A stretch of DNA of 41,980 nucleotides, taken from Candidatus Acidiferrales bacterium (GTDB lineage Bacteria > Acidobacteriota > Terriglobia > Acidiferrales > UBA7541). Shown here piece after piece: positions 7,503 to 36,987 of the stretch. The translations under genes and the position numbers were made by a program. Under the pieces are notes generated by a model. That model saw only the letters and a program-made list of their open reading frames with translations. It was not told where the DNA came from and searched no databases. The stretch spans positions 1 to 41,980 of the forward strand of contig JASHRU010000100.1 in assembly GCA_030037225.1 (NCBI GenBank), read 5' to 3'. Each line of letters opens with the position of its first letter. Position 1 is the stretch's first letter.

Positions 7503-8282
7503 TTACTTCACGATTCCGCGCTCTGCCGATTCGATGAAGCGCAGCAGGACGTCCACATCCTCAGAGGCGCCCAGTTCGGCGCGCACGCGTTCGACCGCCT
7601 GGGTGGTGTTGAGGCGCGACTTGAGGAGCAGGCGGAAGGCCCGCTCAATAGCCTGAATGCGCTCCCTGGAAAATCCCTCGCGCTCAAGGCCGATCGAGTT
7701 AACGCCGTAGCAGCGGGTTTCGCGAGGCGCCACGGTCTTCGAGTAGGGCAGAACATCCTGCGTGATTACCGTGCTCGCGGCGACATAGGCATAGCGGCCG
7801 ATGCGACAGAACTGGTGGACGGGGCAGAAGGCGCCGACGGTGGCGTAGTCTTCCACGGTGACGTGTCCGGCGAGAGTGGCGCCATTGACAAAGAGAGTGT
7901 GTGAGCCGATGAGGCAATCATGCGCGATGTGCGCATAGGCCAGGATGAGGTTATCGCTGCCGATGCGCGTGACGCCTCCGCCCCCGGCAGTACCGCGATT
8001 GACGGAGACGTATTCGCGGAACACGTTGCGGTCGCCCACTTCGAGCCAGGTCGGCTCGCCATGATACTTGCGGTCCTGTGGGGCGGAGCCGACGGTAGAA
8101 AACGGAAAGAAGTGATTCTCGCGGCCGAAGCGAGAGGGCCCATCCACCGTGGCGTGAGAATGGACCACGCAGCCGTCGCCCAGTTCGACGCCGTCGCCGA
8201 CACAGGCAAACGGGCCGATGCAAACACCCTGGCCGAGCCTGGCCCGGGGCGATACGGCGGCCCGCGGATCCACTCCGCTCAT
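7503..8282 (-). CDS. lpxA: UDP-N-acetylglucosamine O-acyltransferase LpxA
   Basis: First step of lipid A synthesis: transfers a hydroxyacyl chain from ACP to UDP-GlcNAc. The 259 residues match the family's usual length of about 260. The hexapeptide left-handed beta-helix repeats fill the N-terminal two thirds, the active-site region AHIAHDC carries the catalytic His, and the C-terminal helical part ends in RFIESAERGIVK. The ATG at 8282 overlaps the fabZ stop as ATGA; the frame remains open upstream inside fabZ, but that extension has no LpxA similarity. The product passes to LpxC, then LpxD (neither in the window), then LpxI next door. Whether the acceptor is UDP-GlcNAc or a 3-amino analogue cannot be read from the sequence. 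Confidence 0.96.
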   Translation of the reverse strand: MSGVDPRAAVSPRARLGQGVCIGPFACVGDGVELGDGCVVHSHATVDGPSRFGRENHFFPFSTVGSAPQDRKYHGEPTWLEVGDRNVFREYVSVNRGTAGGGGVTRIGSDNLILAYAHIAHDCLIGSHTLFVNGATLAGHVTVEDYATVGAFCPVHQFCRIGRYAYVAASTVITQDVLPYSKTVAPRETRCYGVNSIGLEREGFSRERIQAIERAFRLLLKSRLNTTQAVERVRAELGASEDVDVLLRFIESAERGIVK

Positions 8283-8743
8283 TCCCGGTCCGCCATCTTG
8301 CACATGAGAGTCGCTTCCGCGGCGAGTTCTTCGCCGACAAAGGCTTTTCCGTCCAGCTTGCAGAAATCGCCGCGCCAGTTTTTTACGGTCATTTCCAAAC
8401 GGAGCAAATCGCCGGGGACGACGGGACGGCGGAAGCGCGCGCCGTCCACAGCCACGAAGTAAAGCAGCTTGTTTTCGCGGTTGGGGACTTCCATGAGCAG
8501 GAGCAGCCCTCCCGTCTGGGCCATGGCCTCGATAATCAGCACGCCCGGCATGACCGGTTTCCCGGGAAAATGCCCCTGGAAATACCACTCGTTTACGGTG
8601 ACGGCCTTTACGCCCGTGATGCGCTTCAGCCGCTCCATTTCGACGATGGAGTCCACCATCAGGAACGGATGGCGGTGCGGCAGATAGTGCTGGATCGCAA
8701 CCGTGTCCAGGATCATCGCATCCCCTCGGCCCGCCACGGCCAT
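8279..8743 (-). CDS. fabZ: 3-hydroxyacyl-ACP dehydratase FabZ
   Basis: Hot-dog-fold dehydratase of type II fatty acid synthesis, converting 3-hydroxyacyl-ACP to trans-2-enoyl-ACP. It draws on the same hydroxyacyl-ACP pool as LpxA, which explains the common lpxA neighbourhood. The 154 residues contain PHRHPFLMVD and the catalytic HFPGKPVMPG...IEAMAQ motif with His and Glu. Two starts are possible: ATG at 8743, behind GGGGAACGGCG, and ATG at 8716 (MILDTVAIQHYLPHRHP), which agrees better with the family's N-terminus. It is the first gene of the minus-strand lpx run. Confidence 0.95.
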   Translation of the reverse strand: MAVAGRGDAMILDTVAIQHYLPHRHPFLMVDSIVEMERLKRITGVKAVTVNEWYFQGHFPGKPVMPGVLIIEAMAQTGGLLLLMEVPNRENKLLYFVAVDGARFRRPVVPGDLLRLEMTVKNWRGDFCKLDGKAFVGEELAAEATLMCKMADRE

Positions 8744-9039
8744 CGCCGTTCCCCGGGGCAGACGCTACACAGTGAGCGTGCAAGAGAAGCAGCTAATTAT
8801 ATGCGAAAGCGAGAGGATACGTGGAAAACCTGGGACGAGAGGAGGGAAATCAGGCGGGGATTCCGAGGATTGCGAATCGTAGAGACAATAAAGAGAAAGA
8901 ACAGGGCAGGAACTGAGGGAGAAATACGGCGCGGACTGCTATTAAGGATAGGAGCTGCGCTTTGCAGCAAGAAGAGAACTCCACAAAAAACTTCAGTGGG
9001 AGATGGACAACTGCGGTCCTCTCCGCCTTGGGTTGCGCG
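8744..9039. other. Intergenic region upstream of fabZ
   Basis: About 296 bp between the fabZ start and the end of the next small gene, both on the minus strand. The sequence is purine-rich on the plus strand and more AT-rich than its surroundings. It holds the TATAAT element described separately. I see no gene with a ribosome binding site and no terminator hairpin with a T-run. Confidence 0.5.
8796..8801 (-). promoter_or_regulatory. Candidate -10 box of the fabZ-lpxA-lpxI operon
   Basis: A perfect TATAAT on the minus strand, about 52 bp before the upstream fabZ ATG, in a locally AT-rich patch. No good -35 is found at 16-18 bp (CCACGT is the nearest), so it may be a weak or activator-dependent sigma70-type promoter. 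Confidence 0.4.
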
Positions 9040-9270
9040 CTACTGCGGTAAACCGGTGGCTTCCTGCGCAGTTTGAACGGCGAGGGATTCCATCTTCGTC
9101 GGCTGGCTCTGGTCAGCAACTGGCGAAGGCTTCTGTTCCGATGAAGCCGCAACCTCGTGCTTGGCAGCAGCGTGCACACTGGGTTGCGAGAGGAAAGAAC
9201 CTACGGCGCCGAACGCGGCACAGAGGGCCAGGACGCCCACGGCTAACCCTATTGCTTTCAACGTCTTCAT
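9040..9270 (-). CDS. Small exported protein, unknown function
   Basis: A 76-residue product with a clear signal peptide: MKTLKAIGLAVGVLALCAAF, then a small-residue region ending near SVHAAA. A hydrophilic remainder rich in Ser, Gln, Ala and Glu follows, ending in ATGLPQ. There is no domain or metal motif. The ATG has a strong ribosome binding site (AGGAG, 7 bp upstream), which supports expression. It is flanked by long intergenic stretches and looks monocistronic. No family recognised; a periplasmic or secreted small protein is the most that can be said. Confidence 0.65.
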   Translation of the reverse strand: MKTLKAIGLAVGVLALCAAFGAVGSFLSQPSVHAAAKHEVAASSEQKPSPVADQSQPTKMESLAVQTAQEATGLPQ

Positions 9271-9314
9271 ACAACTTCTCCTATCCTACTTGCCTCCGGC
9301 CAATCTGCAGAGGC

Positions 9315-9333
9315 CCGGCGCCTGAGGCGCCGG
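9315..9333. repeat. Perfect 8-bp inverted repeat
   Basis: CCGGCGCC, loop TGA, GGCGCCGG, centred about 54 bp before the ATG of the minus-strand small exported protein gene. No T-run follows on either strand, so it is not an intrinsic terminator. It could be an operator or a hairpin in the 5' leader of that gene; chance in GC-rich DNA is also possible. Confidence 0.4.
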
Positions 9334-9608
9334 AGTCTTCTCCCAACCCGGCAGCTATTCTGGCGGTTAGCCCCGAAAAGGAACATGGAACGCGGGTACT
9401 ACGCGGTGTCCAATGTGCCAACATGGAACAGCGTGGTGCATTTCGGATCGACCGCCAGAGGCGCGTGGCAGTGCGAGGGAAAAGCCGATGAGGTGAGAGG
9501 GAACCACGTTGAAAGTGTTTCAAGACTTCGATTTGGATGCCCACGTAGGAGCCAGAGGGAGCGAACTCATGGCGAACTCTTGGCGGCTGTGCCTGGTCCG
9601 GACAAAGC

Positions 9609-9634
9609 TTGACAGAACGGGGTGATTTGATAGC
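9609..9634 (+). promoter_or_regulatory. Weak promoter candidate for the FecR-like gene
   Basis: TTGACA at 9609-9614 is a perfect -35 hexamer. The best -10-like sequence is GATAGC at 9629-9634, with a short 14-bp spacer, so the pair is imperfect. It lies about 73 bp before the ATG at 9707. Confidence 0.25.
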
Positions 9635-9706
9635 ATCCGTGGACGATTAGGGCTTGGGCTTTGGGCGCACCGCAGCGCGTCTGGAGCCGAGGAGAGCCCC
9701 AAAGGC

Positions 9707-10426
9707 ATGAACCATCGCCAGCTGTCGGCCGTTTTTCTGAGTACGCTCCTAGTAACCCTCCCCTCTTTCGCTACTCCGCAGACTGTGGCTGTCGCAGGAC
9801 CGAGCAAAGCTACGGCTGTGCACGGTAACGGTGTAGCGCAAGGAATGAACATCATGAACGGCGACACGGTGGAGGTGGCGCAGAACGGAGACACGGTGCT
9901 GCTGATGGGGCACAACGCGTGGGTTCATGTGCCAAGTGACAGCGTCGTGAGGGTTTTCAAGTGCGGCGACCGGTCGGTGGTGCAACTGCTGCGGGGCCAG
10001 CTGACGTTCCGATCCACGCCGCAGCAGCCCGTACACGTGCAACTGGGCGACGCGACGATCCAGCCGACATCGGGAAAATTCGTGACCGGGAACGTGGCAC
10101 TCACTTCGCCGGCGACGGCAAACATGACCGCGCAGCAGGGCTCGTTTACGGTGTCCACGGCGCACGACGGAAAGAGCGCGCTGGTGAATGAAGGGCAAAC
10201 GCAGCAAGCCACGCTCTCGTCCGCAGCGGACGTGGCGAATCCAAATCCGCCCATCTGCGGAGTGGCGGCCGCGGTGGTCGGCTCGCCGGCCACCATAGCC
10301 CTGGTGACGCTGGGGCTGGCCGGCGCAGGCCTGGCGACGACGCTGGCGCTGACGCAGACGCAAACGACACTAACCTGCGACCAAAAAGGCGCGCTGGTGA
10401 GCCCTTACGCATTTCCCTGCCCTTGA
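9707..10426 (+). CDS. FecR-like secreted or membrane protein
   Basis: A 239-residue exported protein. A signal peptide is visible (MNHRQLSAVFLSTLLVTLPSFATPQ). A beta-rich region follows (about 30-170) with VNEGQTQQATL near its end, resembling the FecR-type domain that Acidobacteriota attach to envelope proteins. A hydrophobic Ala/Gly/Val helix lies at about 185-215 (PATIALVTLGLAGAGLATTLAL), then a short tail with one Cys. FecR proper relays a signal from an outer-membrane receptor to an ECF sigma factor; no sigma gene or receptor is adjacent, so that role is not claimed. It is probably monocistronic. Export and a membrane helix are well supported, the family only moderately. Confidence 0.65.
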   Translation: MNHRQLSAVFLSTLLVTLPSFATPQTVAVAGPSKATAVHGNGVAQGMNIMNGDTVEVAQNGDTVLLMGHNAWVHVPSDSVVRVFKCGDRSVVQLLRGQLTFRSTPQQPVHVQLGDATIQPTSGKFVTGNVALTSPATANMTAQQGSFTVSTAHDGKSALVNEGQTQQATLSSAADVANPNPPICGVAAAVVGSPATIALVTLGLAGAGLATTLALTQTQTTLTCDQKGALVSPYAFPCP

Positions 10427-10631
10427 TTCGCAGTCCGCTCGGACAATTCAGATTGTTGAATGCCACGGAGCGCGCAGGGTGGCATGCTGGTTGTCAGGAG
10501 AGCGTGTTCGAACGGCCTCGATGGCCGTGCGCGTCCGCCTGAGAAAAGGCGAGCGACGCGCTTGGCTTCCGCGCACGTGCTCTGAAGCGAAGCAAGGGCA
10601 AAAACCAATTCCCGCCTAGCCTGCCGGTGTG

Positions 10632-11264
10632 TCACACCTGCCGGTATTGGTCGAACAACCTCATGGATTGGAGGATGGTCTCGACCGTAGCTTCGTCGCC
10701 TGCGGCGGAATTAATCCACAGATTGTAGAGATAGCGCGCGGGCCAGTCGGCGCCGAAGTATTGCTTGATGAAGGCGGCGCGCTCCTTATCGATGGTGTCC
10801 ACGAGATCGGCGGCCTCGGCTTCGGTCTTGCCAAGCGTCATAATGCGGCGGATTTTGATATCGCGGGGCGCGTAGATGAAGACGTGGAAGGCGTCGGGGC
10901 GGCCGCGGAGTACGTAGGGAGCGCCGCGGCCGACGATGACGCACTCTCCTTCTCCGCCCACACGTTCGATTACCTGGCAGAGGAACGCGACCATGCGCTC
11001 GGCGTCGAACACGTTTGCCTCATCGATCGGGATACTGCGCTCGTAACTGCCGCGAGCAAAGACTTTCGCGAGGCGATAGAGGAGCGGGTCGGGGCGCTCG
11101 TCGTGGCGCTCGGCGGCGGCGGGACTGACGCGGGCGAGTTTGGCGATCTCCTCGGTGAGGGCGTGGTCCCAGAGCTTCCAGCCCAAACGGCGGGCGAGTT
11201 CGGAGGCGATCATGGCGCCGCCGCTGCCGTATTCGCGCTCGATGCTCAGGATTCGCAGCCGCAT
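10632..11264 (-). CDS. Cytidylate kinase-like family protein
   Basis: P-loop kinase fold of 210 residues: the N-terminus ILSIEREYGSGG carries the nucleotide-binding loop, followed by WDHALTEEIAK, the VIVGRGAPYVL strand and a downstream Arg-rich lid (RDIKIRRIM). This is the cytidylate-kinase-like 2 family, which is distinct from housekeeping Cmk and has no firmly known substrate. It is the last gene of the efflux operon, 19 bp after the emrB-type gene, without a clear ribosome binding site. A link to drug efflux is not established; co-transcription may be incidental. Confidence 0.85.
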   Translation of the reverse strand: MRLRILSIEREYGSGGAMIASELARRLGWKLWDHALTEEIAKLARVSPAAAERHDERPDPLLYRLAKVFARGSYERSIPIDEANVFDAERMVAFLCQVIERVGGEGECVIVGRGAPYVLRGRPDAFHVFIYAPRDIKIRRIMTLGKTEAEAADLVDTIDKERAAFIKQYFGADWPARYLYNLWINSAAGDEATVETILQSMRLFDQYRQV

Positions 11265-11283
11265 GGTGATCGTTCTGGGCGCG

Positions 11284-12885
11284 TCAATGGACGTGCATCT
11301 CGGCGCCGGTCTTGGTCTTCTTCAGGAGCAAGGTGAGCGGAACCATGCAGAGCGCCGAAATGGCCAGGATTTTGAAGTCGTCGATGTAGGCGAGCATAGC
11401 GGCCTGACGGCCGACCATGACTTCGAGCAATTTTTGAGATTGCTGTGCGGCCAGGGCGGGAGCGGAGCCGCGCACAAAGAAAGCCTGCGAGATGCCGCGG
11501 AGAGCGGCACGGAGCGGGATGGAGCCGGGATTGAGATGGGCGGCGAGACGAGACTGGTGGAATTGCGAGCGGCGGTCGAGCATGGTGGTGACGAAGGAAA
11601 TGCCCACGCTGCCGCCAATGTTGCGGGCGAGATTGATGAGGCCGGAAGCGGCGTTGTTTTTGTCTCTGGGAATGAAGGCGTAGGCCGCGGTGTTGATGGG
11701 AACGAAAAGGAAGGCCAAGCCGCCGGCCTGAACCAGCCTGGCGAGAGCGACTTCGCGGAAGTCGGCGTTGAGGTCGAAATTCGTCATGCGCAAGAGGGCG
11801 AAGGAGGTCCACGCCCAACCCCAGACGAGCAGGAGCCTGGGCTGGTACCTCGAGAGCAAGAAGCCCACCAGCGGCATGAGCAGCATGATCATGAAGCCGC
11901 CGGGCATCAGGCTGAGCCCCGCCTCCTGCGCCGTATATCCCAGGAGGGTTTGCGAGTAAAGAGGGAGCAGAAGGGTGGTGCCCAGCAGGGCGAAACCGAC
12001 AAAGAACATCATGGCGTTGCTGGCCGCAAAGGTGCGGTCGCGGAAAAGTTTGAGGTCGATGATGGGGTGGGGATGGAACCATTCCCAGGAGATGGCGGCG
12101 AGAAGAGCCACGGCCGCGATGACGCTGAGGGAGACGATGAAGTCCGACTCGAACCAGTCGTCGCGCTGCCCCTTGTCGAGCACGACCTGAAGGGCTCCGA
12201 GCCCGATGGCGAGAAGACCGAGGCCGATATAGTCCACGCGGAACCTCGAGCCCGGCTCGCGCTTGAGGTGGGGCGGATCGTGCACGAGGCGCGAGGTGAG
12301 GGTGATTGAGAGCAGGCCGACGGGCACGTTGACATAAAAAATCCAGCGCCAGCTATAGTTGTCGGTAATCCAGCCGCCGAGGGTAGGACCGATGGCGGGC
12401 GCCAAGACTACGGCCATGCCGTACATCGCGAAGGCGAGGCCGCGCTTGGCGGGAGGAAATGTGTCCGCGAGAATGGCCTGCTCACTGGGCTGGAGGCCGC
12501 CGCCGCCGAGGCCCTGGAGAATCCGGAAAAAGATGAGGGTTGCGAGACTGGGAGCGAGGCCACAGAGGAACGAGCTGGCCGTAAACAGCAGCACGCAGAG
12601 CATGTAGAAGCGCTTGCGGCCGATGAGAGCAGAAAACCAGCCGCTCATGGGGAGGATGATCGCGTTGGAGACCAGATAGGAGGTGAGCACCCAGGTGCTC
12701 TCGTCCTGGCCAGCAGAGAGGCTGCCCGCGATGTGGGGAAGAGCGACGTTGGCGATGCTGGTGTCCAGCACCTCCATAAATGTAGCGAGCGTTACGGTGA
12801 TGGCGATGAGCCACGGGTTGACGGCGGGACGCACGAACGCCGCCTCCGCGGGCGAGGCACCGGCTGCGGCGTCTGCCGCACTCAT
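11284..12885 (-). CDS. DHA2-family (EmrB-type) MFS efflux transporter
   Basis: Proton-driven multidrug exporter of the 14-helix DHA2 family, 533 residues. The N-terminus contains ITVTLATFMEVLDTSIANVALPHI, the family's motif D1 region with LDTSIANVALP, followed by WVLTSYLVSNAI, the GRKRFYML loop after helix 2, and motif C-like GPTLGGWI. The ATG at 12885 overlaps the stop of the membrane-fusion gene by 4 bp; an open frame extends further upstream but lies inside that gene. Together with the next two genes it forms an EmrAB-TolC-type tripartite pump. The substrate cannot be read from sequence. Confidence 0.95.
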   Translation of the reverse strand: MSAADAAAGASPAEAAFVRPAVNPWLIAITVTLATFMEVLDTSIANVALPHIAGSLSAGQDESTWVLTSYLVSNAIILPMSGWFSALIGRKRFYMLCVLLFTASSFLCGLAPSLATLIFFRILQGLGGGGLQPSEQAILADTFPPAKRGLAFAMYGMAVVLAPAIGPTLGGWITDNYSWRWIFYVNVPVGLLSITLTSRLVHDPPHLKREPGSRFRVDYIGLGLLAIGLGALQVVLDKGQRDDWFESDFIVSLSVIAAVALLAAISWEWFHPHPIIDLKLFRDRTFAASNAMMFFVGFALLGTTLLLPLYSQTLLGYTAQEAGLSLMPGGFMIMLLMPLVGFLLSRYQPRLLLVWGWAWTSFALLRMTNFDLNADFREVALARLVQAGGLAFLFVPINTAAYAFIPRDKNNAASGLINLARNIGGSVGISFVTTMLDRRSQFHQSRLAAHLNPGSIPLRAALRGISQAFFVRGSAPALAAQQSQKLLEVMVGRQAAMLAYIDDFKILAISALCMVPLTLLLKKTKTGAEMHVH

Positions 12886-14159
12886 CGCACCGTCACGTCG
12901 GGAATGACGGACATGCCGATGCGCAACTGATGGTCCCGATTCTGACCCGGCTCGAAAACAATCTTTACGGGAATGCGCTGTACGACTTTGACGTAGTTTC
13001 CGGTGGCGTTTTCCGGCGGCAGGAGGCTGTAACGCGCGCCGCTGGCGCCGGCAATGCTGTCCACGTGGCCACGGTAGGTACGCCCGTTCGTGTCCACGGT
13101 AATCGTGGCGGTCTGCCCGGGGCGCATCCAACGCAACTGCGTCTCCTTGTAGTTCGCGGTGACATAAATGTCGTCCACCGGGGAGATGGAGAGGATCTGC
13201 TGGCCGGGCTGGAGGTATTGGCCGAGTTCAACGGTTCGATTCACAACGCCGTCGGAGGGAGCCACAATGGAGCAGTAACTGAGGTTGAGCTTTGCCTGGT
13301 CGAGCTCGGCGCGCTTCTGCTCGACCTGAGCGGAGCTGGAATGAGCGCGGGATTCGGTAATGGCCACCTGGCGAGGACCGGTGCGCGCGGATTCCAGGGC
13401 CGCCTGCGATTGCTTCAATCGTTCGCGGGCCTGCTCGGCCTGCTGCTCGGCGGCCACCAGGGCCGCGCGGGCACCAGCCACCGCAGCGGTCGAGGCGCGA
13501 GCAGAAGCGAGGGCCTGGTCGTATTGCTGCTGGGAGACTTCCTGCTTCTCGACGAGCTGGCGGTAGCGCTCGAGGTCGTCCTGATACTTGACATCATTAG
13601 CTTCGGCCTGAGCGAGATCGGCGCGCATCACCTCGACGTTCTTGTCGGCGGCGGCAGTACCGGCGCGCGAGCTTTGCACGTCTGCCTCCGCCGAACGGAT
13701 CTGGCTGGACGTGCTAATCGAGGTCACCGGGACGTTGATGGCCTGGCCCTCGGCGTTTGCGATGGCATCGGCGAGGTCGGCCTCCGCCTTGGCGACGGCC
13801 ACTTTGTAGTCCGTGGGATCGATTTGCACGAGGACATCGCCCGCGTGCACGAACTGGTTATCGTCCACATTCACTTTGATCACGTAGCCGGAGATGCGGG
13901 AACTGATGGGATTTATATGCCCGTCAATCTGCGCGTCGTCGGTGGATTCGTAGTGCCGGAAATGGAGCCAAGCAACAACGACGGCCACAACCAGAACTGT
14001 GAGCACAGCAAAAACAATCCAGCGGGCGCGAGAGCGCGGTGCCGGAGCCGGAGCAGCGATCGAAGGCCGGCGCGCAGCCGGGCGAGCTTCGCTGGAGAGT
14101 TCGGCGGATTCATCGCGGGGCGCATCCGCCACTGGATCGTAATGTCGCTCGGAGTCCAT
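12882..14159 (-). CDS. HlyD/EmrA-type membrane fusion protein
   Basis: Periplasmic adaptor linking the MFS pump to the outer-membrane channel. The 425 residues show a cytoplasmic N-tail rich in Pro and Ala, one membrane helix (about 48-66), the lipoyl-like half motif with STDDAQIDGHINPISSRISGYV, a long coiled-coil hairpin (about 110-265, rich in Ala, Glu and Gln), the second lipoyl half (LNLSYCSIVAPSDGVV) and a beta-barrel C-domain. Length fits EmrA relatives. It starts 3 bp after the tolC-type stop, with AAGGGGAAG upstream. Role in the pump is secure from domain order and neighbours. Confidence 0.95.
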   Translation of the reverse strand: MDSERHYDPVADAPRDESAELSSEARPAARRPSIAAPAPAPRSRARWIVFAVLTVLVVAVVVAWLHFRHYESTDDAQIDGHINPISSRISGYVIKVNVDDNQFVHAGDVLVQIDPTDYKVAVAKAEADLADAIANAEGQAINVPVTSISTSSQIRSAEADVQSSRAGTAAADKNVEVMRADLAQAEANDVKYQDDLERYRQLVEKQEVSQQQYDQALASARASTAAVAGARAALVAAEQQAEQARERLKQSQAALESARTGPRQVAITESRAHSSSAQVEQKRAELDQAKLNLSYCSIVAPSDGVVNRTVELGQYLQPGQQILSISPVDDIYVTANYKETQLRWMRPGQTATITVDTNGRTYRGHVDSIAGASGARYSLLPPENATGNYVKVVQRIPVKIVFEPGQNRDHQLRIGMSVIPDVTVR

Positions 14160-14162
14160 CGC

Positions 14163-15593
14163 TCACTTCCCCTTGAGGTATTCTGCCACGCCGACTTCGG
14201 CGTTGCCGACGGCGCGGGCAAGAGAAATCTTGGCCAAATCATAGGCATAGAGGCTGGAGATAAGGGCCTCGTCGGCGCTGGCCACGGCGTCTTGAGCCTG
14301 GACGACTTCGACGTTGTTGGTGACGCCGGCGCGAAAGCGGTCTTGGGACTGTTTGAGGGTTTCGTCGGCAAGGCTGACGTTCGTGCGGGCGACGGCCACG
14401 CGCTCCTTGGCGGCCTGGAGATCGAGGAAGGCGGCGCGAACGTCGTAGTCCACCTGGCCGCGAAGGTTTTCCACCTGGGCGCGGCTCTGATCAAGAGCGG
14501 CCTGGGCGATAAGGACGTCGCCATGAACGCGGTTGCCCTGAAAAATGGGCACGGTGAGACGGACGCTGGCGTCGAATACACCGTGCGACTGGCCAGGGGT
14601 GACGCCCGCGTCGCCGTAATCGCCGGTGAATCCGATGGAGGGCAAATACTCGGCGCCGGCGGCACGGCGCGCGAGTTCCGCGGCACGGAGAGAGGCGCGG
14701 GCGCTGAGATAGTCGGGGCGAGTGGCGTAGGCGCGGTCCAAGGCCTGGTCGAGCGTCCACGCCTCCATAGGTTCGTAGAGAGCCTTGTCGCTGAGGGTGA
14801 CCTGTTGACCGGGGGGCAAACCGATCACGCGGCCGAGCATGAGCTTTTCTTTCTCGTAATCGTTGCGGGCAACGATGACCTGCTGGTTGCGCGTTTCGAG
14901 CTCGACCTGGGCGCGGAGAACATCGATGGCAGGCGAGAGGCCGGCCTTGAGTTGGTCACGCGCGAGATCATAAAGGGCTTGCGCGGTAGCCTGCTGGGCG
15001 ACCGAAGTATCGACGCGGGCCGCGCCCGCCACAGTCTGGAGATAGCTGTTGCCGACGGCGAGAACGACGATGTCGCGCGCGTCCTGATAGCTGAATTTTG
15101 CCGCCTCCAGACTGGCACCCGCAGAGCGCGCGCGGTTGATCAGGTTCCAGTCGAAAAAGGTCTCGGAGAGCGTCGCGCGCGTATCGATGTAGCCGAACGG
15201 GCCGATCACTCTGGGAAAGAGCGGAGTGCGAAAGCCCAGGGTGGCGAGATCGATTTGCGAGGCGGTTTCGGAAAGGTAGTACTGGGCATTGGGAAGAAGG
15301 GAGGAGAGCTCGCGCCATTTTTCGCCGCGCGCACCACGGATACTGAATTCGGAGAGCACGGCGCCGAGATTTTGCTTAAGGCCGCGCTCGATGGCCTCCT
15401 TCAATGAAAGCACCAGCGGCTCCGCCGTTGCTTTTCCCACAGGCACGCTGCCGTTAAAGGTTTGCGGAAGAGAGACCATAGGCGGCGGAGCCGCGCCGGG
15501 CTGCCCGGGCGAGTAGCCGGCCTGCGGATAGGCCGGGACACTCAGGCCGACGGCCAAGAGAAACAGAACGAACAATCGTCCTCCAGACTTCAT
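14163..15593 (-). CDS. TolC-family outer membrane efflux protein
   Basis: Outer-membrane channel of the tripartite pump, 476 residues. The chosen ATG (15593) has AAGGA 6 bp upstream and opens a signal peptide (MKSGGRLFVLFLLAVGLSVPAYPQ). The frame remains open 162 bp further upstream, but that part is not signal-like. The body shows the two OEP repeats of TolC proteins, with long amphipathic helices (SLKEAIERGLKQNLG, then AELARRAAGAEYLPSIGFTGDYG) and the closing AVGNAEVGVAEYLKGK. It is the first gene of the operon tolC-emrA-emrB-kinase, reading away from the concentric palindromes at 15649-15723. Confidence 0.95.
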   Translation of the reverse strand: MKSGGRLFVLFLLAVGLSVPAYPQAGYSPGQPGAAPPPMVSLPQTFNGSVPVGKATAEPLVLSLKEAIERGLKQNLGAVLSEFSIRGARGEKWRELSSLLPNAQYYLSETASQIDLATLGFRTPLFPRVIGPFGYIDTRATLSETFFDWNLINRARSAGASLEAAKFSYQDARDIVVLAVGNSYLQTVAGAARVDTSVAQQATAQALYDLARDQLKAGLSPAIDVLRAQVELETRNQQVIVARNDYEKEKLMLGRVIGLPPGQQVTLSDKALYEPMEAWTLDQALDRAYATRPDYLSARASLRAAELARRAAGAEYLPSIGFTGDYGDAGVTPGQSHGVFDASVRLTVPIFQGNRVHGDVLIAQAALDQSRAQVENLRGQVDYDVRAAFLDLQAAKERVAVARTNVSLADETLKQSQDRFRAGVTNNVEVVQAQDAVASADEALISSLYAYDLAKISLARAVGNAEVGVAEYLKGK

Positions 15594-15648
15594 AAGATTC
15601 CTTCGATTGAGATAAATCCGCCAGCTCGAAGGCCGGCCGCTCCGCTCA

Positions 15649-15723
15649 CTCGCTAAAGACCATCGCGTATCCTCTTGGATGCAGCGGCTGCATTCTGGTG
15701 GCGGCCGGTTCATCTTTAGCGAG
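15649..15723. promoter_or_regulatory. Concentric palindromes between tolC and the M20 gene
   Basis: An 11-bp perfect inverted repeat, CTCGCTAAAGA at 15649-15659 and TCTTTAGCGAG at 15713-15723, surrounds an inner perfect 15-bp palindrome, ATGCAGCGGCTGCAT at 15679-15693. Both dyads share the same centre, position 15686. The block lies in the 173-bp divergent gap between the efflux operon and the peptidase gene. Two concentric dyads in a divergent promoter are what a dimeric or tetrameric regulator site would look like; a cruciform or a structured leader of the tolC mRNA are alternatives. No regulator gene is adjacent. Confidence 0.55.
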
Positions 15724-15752
15724 AGCCCGGGACCAGAGCCGGGAGATGCTGG

Positions 15753-15758
15753 CATAAT
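15753..15758 (+). promoter_or_regulatory. -10 element giving a possibly leaderless M20 mRNA
   Basis: CATAAT (5 of 6 match to TATAAT) ends 8 bp before the ATG at 15767, so transcription would begin at or within about two bases of the start codon. No Shine-Dalgarno sequence precedes that ATG, which agrees with leaderless translation. The -35 region is weak. Confidence 0.45.
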
Positions 15759-15766
15759 ACGCGGCT

Positions 15767-16921
15767 ATGGTAAATCCCCGAAAGCTTTTGAGCTGGCTCC
15801 GGAAGCGCGAAGGAGCGATGACGCGCCTACTGGGAAAGCTGGTGCGCATGGAATCTTCCAGCTACGACCAGGAGGGCGTCAACCGCCTGGTGAGTGTGCT
15901 CGCCAGAGAATGGGGAAGGCGCGGCGCGCGCGTGAGCCGCATCAAGCCTCCAAGGACGGCCGGACGGGGAGACGTACTGCGCTGTGAACTGCCCGGCGGA
16001 AAAAAAAGCGGGAAACAAATCCTGGTGCTGGGGCATACGGATACGGTGTACGAACGAGGGACGCTGGCGCGGATGCCGTTTCGCACGAGCGGTGGTCGCG
16101 CCTATGGGCCGGGTGCGCTGGACATGAAGGCGGGACTGGTGATCGCTCTGGCGGCAGTGGATGCCCTGCGCGCGGCAGGTCTTGTGCCGAGGCGGGGGCT
16201 GGTTTTTCTGTGGACTCCCGACGAGGAGATAGGAAGCGGCGGCTCGCGTGGAATGATCGAACGCGAGGCCCGCCGAAGCGCAGTGGCGCTCGTGTTGGAA
16301 CCGGGCACGGGCGTGAAGGGAAGATTGAAGACAGCGCGCAAAGGCACGGGAGAGTTCAGGCTGGAGGTGACCGGCCGCGCGGCACACGCAGGCGTCAACC
16401 CGCAGGACGGAATCAATGCGATTCACGAACTGGTGCTACAAGTCGCACGAGTCGCGCGGTTCGCGGATGCACGCCGTGGGATCACCGTAAACGCCGACGT
16501 CATCGAAGGCGGAACGCGCACGAACGTGATCGCTGAACACGCGCGGGCGCGAGTGGACATTCGCTGCGGCCGCGCGCGCGACATTGTGGGCCTCGAGGCC
16601 CGCTTCCGGAGCCTGCGGCCAATTCTGCCGGGCGCGCGGCTGCGCGTTGCGGGCGGCTTCGACCGGCCACCGATGGAGCGGAGGAGGGCCGCGCGGCTCT
16701 TTGGAGTGGCGAGATCGCTGGGGGACGTGATGGGATTGCGCATCGAAGAGTCGTCCACCGGCGGCGGGTCGGACGGGAATCTCACAGCGGCATTGGGTGT
16801 GCCCACGCTGGACGGTCTGGGCGCCGCGGGAGCAGGAGCACACACGCCGGGCGAATTTATCCGCACGCGGTCGCTCACTGAGCGAGCTGCTCTTCTTGCC
16901 GCACTACTGGCCGAACTCTGA
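15767..16921 (+). CDS. M20-family zinc carboxypeptidase (glutamate carboxypeptidase-like)
   Basis: Di-zinc metallopeptidase of 384 residues; relatives such as carboxypeptidase G2 remove C-terminal Glu or hydrolyse acyl-amino acids. Visible ligand motifs in order: GHTDTV (first His), GALDMKAG (bridging Asp), TPDEEIGSGGSR (catalytic Glu and Glu ligand), LEPG (ligand region) and GAHTPGEF near the end (last His). The dimerisation domain contains GRAAHAGVNPQDGINAI. No signal peptide is seen, so it is probably cytoplasmic. The first ATG (15767) keeps the helical N-terminus usual in the family; an internal ATG at 15818 has a GGAG close upstream but would cut into that helix. It stands alone, divergent from the efflux operon. 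Confidence 0.92.
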   Translation: MVNPRKLLSWLRKREGAMTRLLGKLVRMESSSYDQEGVNRLVSVLAREWGRRGARVSRIKPPRTAGRGDVLRCELPGGKKSGKQILVLGHTDTVYERGTLARMPFRTSGGRAYGPGALDMKAGLVIALAAVDALRAAGLVPRRGLVFLWTPDEEIGSGGSRGMIEREARRSAVALVLEPGTGVKGRLKTARKGTGEFRLEVTGRAAHAGVNPQDGINAIHELVLQVARVARFADARRGITVNADVIEGGTRTNVIAEHARARVDIRCGRARDIVGLEARFRSLRPILPGARLRVAGGFDRPPMERRRAARLFGVARSLGDVMGLRIEESSTGGGSDGNLTAALGVPTLDGLGAAGAGAHTPGEFIRTRSLTERAALLAALLAEL

Positions 16922-35202: not shown

Positions 35203-36888
35203 TCAGTGCTTCAGCAGGGGTTCTGCGAAGTGGATGGGGATGCCGAAATTGGAGCCCCCAAAACCCTTGAGGATTGCGTAGTTGACGCCAATGACTTTGC
35301 CGTCCTCATTGAAGAGCGGGCCGCCGGAACCGCCGGACGTGGTCTGTGCGTCGTAGACGAGTTTGTCGGGCAAGATATCGCCGAGATGCCCCTGAGTGGT
35401 GATGGGCCGGATGAGCTTGCGGCTGGCCAGCGCGGTCATGATGCTGGTGGGACTGTCGCCCGCGGTATCCACGATTTTATGCACGGTGTCTTCGTCGGTG
35501 CGCGCGAGGATGGCATCGAGACCGGTAGGGTAGCCCATCAGGACCACGGGGGTGCCGCTGACGGCGCCTTTTGAGCTCGGGTCGAGTGTGAGTGGGGCGC
35601 GCTTGGAATCGTCAAGAGTCACGCGAACTGCGGCTAGATCCGCATCGTCGGATATCTTGTCCACAGAGGTGTGCAGCGGCCGGGACGCGTCCGGGCAATA
35701 GCATTCAATATCGGCAAGGACGGCCTCCATGCCTTCTTCACTGACCCCCGAGAGATCATCGTTCTTCCACCAAGGCTCGACGACATGGCGATTGGTGAGC
35801 ATCCGGCCGTCAGGGGAAACGAGGAAGGCGCTGCCGAAAAAGTCCAGACGGACTTCCGGCCCGCGGCCTTCGAGCGAAAGAACCGGCTTGCCTTCGCTGT
35901 CCTCAATGGGCTCGCCCTTTTGGTTCAGCCCGGCATAGTGCACGCGTGAGCCGCTATCCTTGTCGCGGAACGCCACGGAAACGTGCAGCAGGCAAACGCT
36001 CCGCGCGTAGGATCGAATGATGCCCTGGGCAATCTTGCTCTCGCCCTCGATCCGGTTCAGGCGACCCGTAGTTTCATCGAGCTGGCGGCGGAGCTCAGCG
36101 ATGTTGCCGGCGTCGGAAGTGCTTCCGATCTGGGTTTTCAGGGTGTCGCTCTGGTCGCGAAGCTGCTGCATCTCGTCTTCAATGCCGGACGGCTTGGACT
36201 GGTTTTCCTGGCGCGTCTGATTTGTCTTGGCCAAAAGCTTTTCCTGGCCGGTGAGGGTGTCTTCCAGTTGCGAAATGATGCGGTAGGCGCGGCGGGATTC
36301 CTTCTCCACCCGGCGCGTGAAGAAGAAAAAGATGCCGGCCATCAAGAGTGCGCCTCCCAGGACGCCGGCCAGGCCGATGCGCAGGCGACGATCGAGCGAG
36401 AAGGCATCTTTGGTCATCTTCTCGGTAACGGCGAGGGCATCGAAAGCGGTACGGGCGATTTGCTGACCTTCTTCGGCGATGCGGACCTGGTCGAGCATGG
36501 CCTGCGTAGCGCGGCGCGTGCGAAGCTGGTTGCGGACGCGGGCAAGGAACTCCTGGTTCTCCCAAGGGCGGGAGATGACATCGTCGGCGCCCAGATCGAG
36601 GGCGCGGGCGCGTTCGGCGGGACCGAGCGAGGAAAGAACCAGAACCCGGGCGTAGCGCGTGGCGGCTGCGCCTTTGAGCTGGGTGACCGTATCCGACCAG
36701 CAACTGCCGGCTTCGCCCGCGTCCAGAATGATAAGTTCCGGCTCGGTTTTCTGCGCCACCTCCACGCCCTCAGCGCAGACTGCCGTGGAAAAGACCTCGT
36801 AACCCGCGGCGCGCAGCTCCTGATCGAGCTCCTGCCGGGGCTGGTCGTGCGCGTCAATCAGAATGATGCTTTCGCGTTTCGTTGCCAT
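35203..36888 (-). CDS. Receiver-like domain, one TM helix, coiled coil and trypsin-type protease in one protein
   Basis: A 561-residue protein of unusual build, numbered from the ATG at 36888. Residues 5-125 form a response-regulator receiver fold: ILIDAHD acidic pocket, phosphoacceptor-position Asp56 in IILDAGE, Ser86-Ser87, and an Arg at 107 where receivers have the Lys of the KP motif. A helix (130-165) leads to one membrane segment (about 171-191), then a coiled coil (195-285), then a DegP-like trypsin domain with His368 in TNRHVV, Asp417 in DADLAAV and Ser521 in TTSGGSGGPL. There is no PDZ domain and no signal peptide, so the receiver is inside and the protease should be periplasmic. The frame is open 81 bp further upstream; that part is not conserved-looking. 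It is flanked by its own short gaps on both sides. Confidence 0.85.
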   Translation of the reverse strand: MATKRESIILIDAHDQPRQELDQELRAAGYEVFSTAVCAEGVEVAQKTEPELIILDAGEAGSCWSDTVTQLKGAAATRYARVLVLSSLGPAERARALDLGADDVISRPWENQEFLARVRNQLRTRRATQAMLDQVRIAEEGQQIARTAFDALAVTEKMTKDAFSLDRRLRIGLAGVLGGALLMAGIFFFFTRRVEKESRRAYRIISQLEDTLTGQEKLLAKTNQTRQENQSKPSGIEDEMQQLRDQSDTLKTQIGSTSDAGNIAELRRQLDETTGRLNRIEGESKIAQGIIRSYARSVCLLHVSVAFRDKDSGSRVHYAGLNQKGEPIEDSEGKPVLSLEGRGPEVRLDFFGSAFLVSPDGRMLTNRHVVEPWWKNDDLSGVSEEGMEAVLADIECYCPDASRPLHTSVDKISDDADLAAVRVTLDDSKRAPLTLDPSSKGAVSGTPVVLMGYPTGLDAILARTDEDTVHKIVDTAGDSPTSIMTALASRKLIRPITTQGHLGDILPDKLVYDAQTTSGGSGGPLFNEDGKVIGVNYAILKGFGGSNFGIPIHFAEPLLKH

Positions 36889-36987
36889 CACGGCGAGACG
36901 CGCGCAGATGCCATGCCCTGGGCTGCGCGCGAACGTGACAGAGTAACCTAGAGACGGCGGGAATGCCACACGGGGAGATGCGGTGCG

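Follow-up and report, generated by a model that had tools for sequence, protein, structure and literature searches.

The window, the whole 41,980-nucleotide stretch of DNA analyzed here, is contig C60 of a 4.04 Mb MAG (G000) that comprises 432 contigs and is 92.5% complete. Among named genome contigs, TolC is matched best in MAGs labelled Candidatus Acidiferrales and Acidobacteria. The minus strand of the window carries an emrAB-tolC-like operon encoding (i) a tolC-like outer membrane efflux protein (OEP; 14,163–15,593; Pfam PF02321, E 2.7e-51), (ii) an HlyD/EmrA-type adaptor (12,882–14,159), for which TIGR00998 is the best hit but lies below its cut-off, and (iii) an EmrB-type DHA2 MFS transporter (11,284–12,867, with an approximate 5′ limit of our choosing; TIGR00711, 468 bits, above cut-off). 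A cytidylate-kinase-like protein recognized by domain search is encoded on the same strand (10,632–11,264) and is operon-linked in some relatives too, with tblastn matches behind the efflux operon at loci L003, L004, and L006. Divergent from the tolC operon, on the plus strand, is the gene for an M20 family peptidase/hydrolase (15,767–16,921). A close M20 match (E at most 1e-40) occurs in 81 of the 89 genomes of the family, and the other eight have weaker M20-type matches.

The efflux operon splits lpxA (7,503–8,783) from M20. The interval between these two genes (8,784–15,766) also holds a weakly FecR-like ORF (9,707–10,426) that scores below the Pfam cut-off. Upstream of lpxA, the sequence AATTATATGCGAAA (8,784–8,820) has an exact copy in the lpxA–M20 gap of L081 and, by eye, variants in those of L077 and L078; it is possibly the lpxA promoter. 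Elsewhere in the window, an ORF at 35,203–36,969 fuses a response-regulator receiver to a trypsin-like domain. The single congener among the genomes compared is a 79% complete MAG (G001), whose locus (L002/L017, JASHSV010000275.1) encodes a TolC 89% identical and an M20 protein 84% identical to those of the window.

Two perfect palindromes sharing one center, at 15,686, lie in the divergent gap between tolC and M20, and the position and geometry given for them in the preliminary description agree with the sequence to the base. The outer one is an inverted repeat of 11-bp exact reverse complements, CTCGCTAAAGA (15,649–15,659, the 3′ arm when read on the tolC strand) and TCTTTAGCGAG (15,713–15,723), with 53 bp between the arms. 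The inner one, ATGCAGCGGCTGCAT (15,679–15,693), is a perfect 15-bp palindrome (7+1+7) that contains a conserved 6+3+6 core, ATGCAG-N3-CTGCAT, and is a putative operator. It is overlapped by a second dyad at 15,667–15,682, which reads GCATCC-AAGA-GGATAC on the minus strand, forms five of six pairs in the window and all six in the congener, and falls mostly within a conserved 25-bp block. Allowing at most one mismatch, GCATCC-N4-GGATGC occurs at 20 places in G000 and 25 in G001, against 5 and 2 for the respective backwards controls. Dyad symmetry in an intergenic control region is what would be expected of an operator for a dimeric regulator. As had also been remarked, no regulator gene adjoins the palindromes: a Pfam scan of 30 window ORFs, a subset of the total, returned no DNA-binding regulator domain.

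The rarity of the shared center depends on whether the palindromes are taken singly or jointly. With an inner center defined by palindromic arms of 7 bp or longer, an outer center by a perfect run of 11 or more within 60 bp, and a joint case by both together, the window has 13 inner centers, 5 outer centers, and 1 joint case. The corresponding means over 60 dinucleotide shuffles are 10.2, 1.8, and 0 (maxima 20, 5, and 0), and relaxing the limits to 6 (inner) and 9 (outer) gives a joint mean of 0.025 over 40 shuffles. In real background sequence, stretches from 20 further contigs of the MAG (195,957 bases) yield 37 inner, 13 outer, and no joint cases, while 51 further loci (357,491 bases; 50 from other genomes and 1 from the host genome, some of them overlapping) yield 75, 35, and none. 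The pooled background of about 553 kb thus holds 112 inner and 48 outer centers and no joint case, and multiplying the rates leads, by our arithmetic, to an expectation of about 0.005 joint cases in that background and about 0.035 in a genome of the host's size. Either palindrome alone is therefore ordinary in a 42-kb window of such composition, whereas their coincidence is rare in both the shuffles and the real background. The co-centering is, however, surprising only for one named place; it ceases to be so once many windows have been searched for many types of pattern.

These counts bear on the possibility that neither palindrome is functional, i.e., that they are chance dyads with the same center and that the inner one has been kept merely by a short divergence time. 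The commonness of each palindrome on its own favors this explanation, as does the presumably large number of windows and patterns screened before the choice fell on this one; the absence of any joint case from the shuffles and from 553 kb of real sequence speaks against it.

Comparison with the congener separates the two palindromes. The tolC/M20 gap aligns with that of L002 over 173 columns free of indels, 118 of them identical. The 23 columns adjoining the M20 start are all identical, and beyond the first 30 columns at that end identity is 91 of 143. The inner palindrome retains 14 of its 15 columns, six of seven pairs, and every one of the 12 bases in the 6+6 core arms. The outer arms retain 10 of 22 columns, which is below average (4 of 11 in the left arm and 6 of 11 in the right), and only 3 of 11 pairs; both arms are probably due to chance. 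Conservation in close relatives, the test that the preliminary description had set for itself, hence comes out positive for the inner palindrome and negative for the outer repeat, and the loss of the latter is a further point for an absence of function.

The conserved block around the inner palindrome can be written ATGCAGCC(G/T)CTGCATCCAA(G/A)AGGAT. Outside the first 30 columns, 7 of 129 windows of 15 columns have at least 14 identities, and all seven start at columns 73–83. These starts correspond to the inner dyad and its flank; with the 30 columns next to M20 set aside, no other part of the gap is as well kept. The hypergeometric probability is 0.008 for the 15 columns of the dyad and 0.003 for the 12 core arm bases, while column shuffling for an equally good block anywhere in the gap gives P = 0.31 for 15 columns, 0.025 for 25, and 0.13 for 31. 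The smaller values (0.003–0.008) apply because the palindrome had been named before its conservation was examined, and they weigh against a lack of function, on whose side the value of 0.31 can be counted; all of them describe a single comparison, since there is only one congener. An upstream ORF as the explanation of the block was rejected. The block is readable as ATG CAG CC(G/T)..., but by eye the frames of the two species soon part, and the tolC frame, open upstream in the window, meets a stop in L002.

Among the family genomes searched, the block is confined to the genus. With up to three mismatches, the 25-bp sequence occurs in 2 of the 89 family genomes, G000 and G001, once in each and both times at the tolC/M20 gap; it has no match at that limit in the other 87, which again would suit a chance dyad. 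A class-wide draw of 299 genomes, among which G001 does not figure, contains it in three at the same limit: the window itself and two three-mismatch places in other families. The exact core ATGCAG-N3-CTGCAT has a single match in each of G000 and G001. With at most one mismatch, it is found at 15 places in G000 and 10 in the congener, against 9 and 5 for the respective backwards controls. Among the 14 other places in G000, 13 fall within ORFs at least 249 codons long, and the remaining one (L051, C92:1053) coincides with the start codon of an ORF of 350 codons and could be intergenic. Overlap with an ORF is weak proof against such sites, as the tolC frame stays open far enough upstream to cover the window's own site.

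The outer 11-mer recurs at three other places in the host genome. Two are near-identical copies, at contig ends, of the last part of one open frame (judged by eye), the third is inside a long open frame, and a second control region is seen at none of the three. A 16-base extension of the arm occurs at two other places in the genome, both of them the contig-end copies. On this distribution, copies of one frame end plus one site within a long frame, the outer arm was rejected as a repeated element. The contig ends in question (C31 and C112 of G000; L061 and L064) have 388 bases in common at 99% identity and may represent an assembly overlap or a strain variant. The genome scan proposed in the preliminary description revealed no regulon for the inner or the outer palindrome.

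The gene order around the site was itself seen only in this genus. Of 28 M20 loci in relatives, 17 have lpxA within the 1.5-kb flank of M20. In 15 the two genes are direct divergent neighbors separated by 71–300 bp, measured from projected starts, and in two others the gap is 884 and 1,057 bp. Longer stretches place lpxA about 2.5 kb from M20 in G027 and about 3.5 kb away in G089, while no lpxA lies near M20 in the stretches fetched for G011 and G003. The contig of G001 ends inside hlyD, and the lpxA side is therefore visible in the window genome only. From these gene orders, an emrAB-tolC-like operon without tetR appears to have been inserted or rearranged into the lpxA–M20 interval in this genus. 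A derivation of the dyad from the old lpxA–M20 gap was considered and rejected, because the best matches to the 25-bp block in the 15 such gaps (12–15 of 25) equal those in one shuffle of each gap.

In many relatives, the homologous operon comes with a tetR. Among 12 distinct loci with a TolC identity of 50% or more and no less than 500 bp upstream (L004 and L021 are one contig and were counted once), 8 have tetR immediately preceding tolC in the same orientation. This count leaves out L014, L025, and L027, which have short upstream sequence, and three of the eight TetR proteins are the queries themselves. TetR_N exceeds the Pfam cut-off in seven of the eight; in L004, the exception, only a C-terminal fragment is present, at a contig end, and its TetR_C matches fall below cut-off. 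The order tetR-tolC-hlyD-mfs-cmk is found in L003 and L006, with a short mfs match in L006. No tetR match is found upstream of tolC in L002/L017, and the nearest TetR proteins in G000 and G001 (44–46% identical; best in G000, 44%) adjoin another tolC paralogue. The lack of a regulator beside the palindromes thus follows from the position of the operon between lpxA and M20 without the tetR that precedes it in relatives. As 4 of the 12 relatives are likewise without tetR, we infer the direction of this change only tentatively.

Several known kinds of regulatory site resemble the inner palindrome in part. The putative TetR-type operators of relatives are also short interrupted palindromes in the control region of the homologous efflux operon. 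Palindromes like ATGACT-N3-AGTCAT stand just in front of tetR in L003, L006, L018, L019, L020, L023, and L024; they are perfect in L003 (7+3+7) and L024 (6+3+6) and imperfect or shifted in the others. They differ from the ATGCAG-N3-CTGCAT of the window both in sequence and in their placement before tetR. A TGAC-N(2-6)-GTCA core is absent from the tolC/M20 gap of the window, and for want of this core and of an adjacent tetR the inner palindrome was rejected as the TetR operator of the homologous operons. The LysR-type box has the consensus T-N11-A, as stated in PMC6018408. The TGCAG-N3-CTGCA of the window spans T-N11-A and is located in a divergent gap, but the scanned window ORFs include no LysR domain, and T-N11-A is too loose to assign the family. 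QacR/CgmR-type operators, each bound by a pair of dimers, likewise show nested symmetry at an efflux gene (PMC9210681); they measure 28 and 32 bp, whereas the site in the window extends over 75 bp and its outer repeat is unconserved.

Promoter-like sequence lies at the M20 end of the gap. An extended −10-like element, TGGCATAAT (15,750–15,758, plus strand), is situated immediately before the M20 start codon. The pattern TTGC-(N18-20)-TRGNAT precedes the projected M20 start by 9–36 bp in 21 of 28 relatives (L074–L101); the genus of the window keeps the downstream part as TGGCATAAT, and the TTGC part is missing. In some relatives the pattern is close enough to M20 for a leaderless transcript. 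Overlapping TGGCATAAT, ATAATA (15,754–15,759) reads TATTAT towards tolC, so that the pseudo-symmetrical CATAATA (15,753–15,759) presents a −10-like hexamer in both directions. By our geometry, CATAATA could drive transcription both ways from start points separated by about 18 bp, and 18 bp is the commonest start spacing of bidirectional promoters in PMC12825309. The placement in a divergent gap is a further likeness to the shared −10 promoters described there, but −35 elements are not recognizable in the window. If the promoter is bidirectional, about 80 bp would separate the palindromes from the M20 start downstream, and a tolC transcript would reach them after about 60 nt of leader. A search for sigma-70 matches returned none on either strand of the window gap or of L002, and no tolC promoter was recognized.

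This arrangement is the basis for a second alternative, in which the palindromes belong to a 5′ leader by which the tolC mRNA folds or is attenuated. A tolC start from the reversed M20 −10 (TATTAT, at about 15,747) would put both palindromes in a leader of about 150 nt, and the bidirectional fit of CATAATA, with its start spacing matching that in PMC12825309, adds to the case. The inner repeat has bases in common with a GCAUCC-AARA-GGAU hairpin and the two could form alternative hairpins; the GCAUCC/GGAU hairpin appears in the minimum-energy folds of both species. Three terminator-like sites are found in 15,550–15,800, against 0.1 expected from shuffles, and one of them (15,637–15,620, minus strand) is in the tolC leader. 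The corresponding region of L002, however, contains no terminator-like site, the outer stem is lost there, and neither species offers a sigma-70 match. Folding is not clearly better than that of shuffled sequence in either species: the z-scores for window and congener are −0.22 and −0.46 for the whole gap, −1.58 and −0.06 for a 96-nt core, and −0.25 and −1.24 for a 44-nt core. The earlier proposal of a folded tolC leader consequently loses ground, and a structured RNA leader is improbable.

The preliminary description also raised a composite site, here taken as gained in this species only, at which both palindromes would be bound by a tetramer or by two dimers. It is suggested by the shared center, by arm centers 64 bp apart (about six helical turns), and by the binding of one operator as a dimer pair by other regulators such as QacR, a TetR family member (PMC9210681). 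It is nevertheless very unlikely, because the congener kept the inner palindrome (6 of 7 pairs) without the outer arms (3 of 11), and no second control region was seen at the other places of the outer 11-mer. A more elaborate history, in which the operon moved beside an unrelated, widely conserved peptidase gene, parted from its TetR repressor, and acquired a shared pseudo-symmetrical −10, a genus-wide inner operator, and species-only outer arms for two dimers or a tetramer, is the least probable scenario considered.

The explanation that ranks first, held tentatively and at rather less than even confidence, is that the inner palindrome is a genus-specific, single-copy putative operator for an unlinked dimeric regulator and that the outer arms are a coincidence. 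An absence of function ranks next, very close behind and likewise below an even chance, ahead of the RNA leader and then the composite site. Under the operator explanation, the inner palindrome at 15,679–15,693, perhaps together with the overlapping GCATCC-N4-GGATRC dyad, would form one site for a dimeric regulator. The gene for this regulator would be elsewhere in the genome, and its product would control either the divergent tolC operon or M20, or the two together. The site would be part of a junction seen only in this genus, where an operon without tetR sits between lpxA and M20, and the outer arms would play no part in it. We infer that a protein binds here, and any naming of that protein, of the gene it controls, and of the direction of control is equally conditional. 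Against an operator stand the column-shuffle probabilities and the restriction of the comparison to one congener, the absence of a regulon, of a linked regulator, and of a recognized tolC promoter in the searches described, as well as the 4 of 12 relatives without tetR, by which the missing tetR is not special to the genus.

The features of this locus fit known kinds of regulatory DNA, and the palindrome is ordinary as a DNA feature. The co-centering that first drew interest does not survive comparison with one relative. If the inner palindrome is an operator, the locus would be a small case of a displaced efflux operon that lacks a local repressor and has come under other control.
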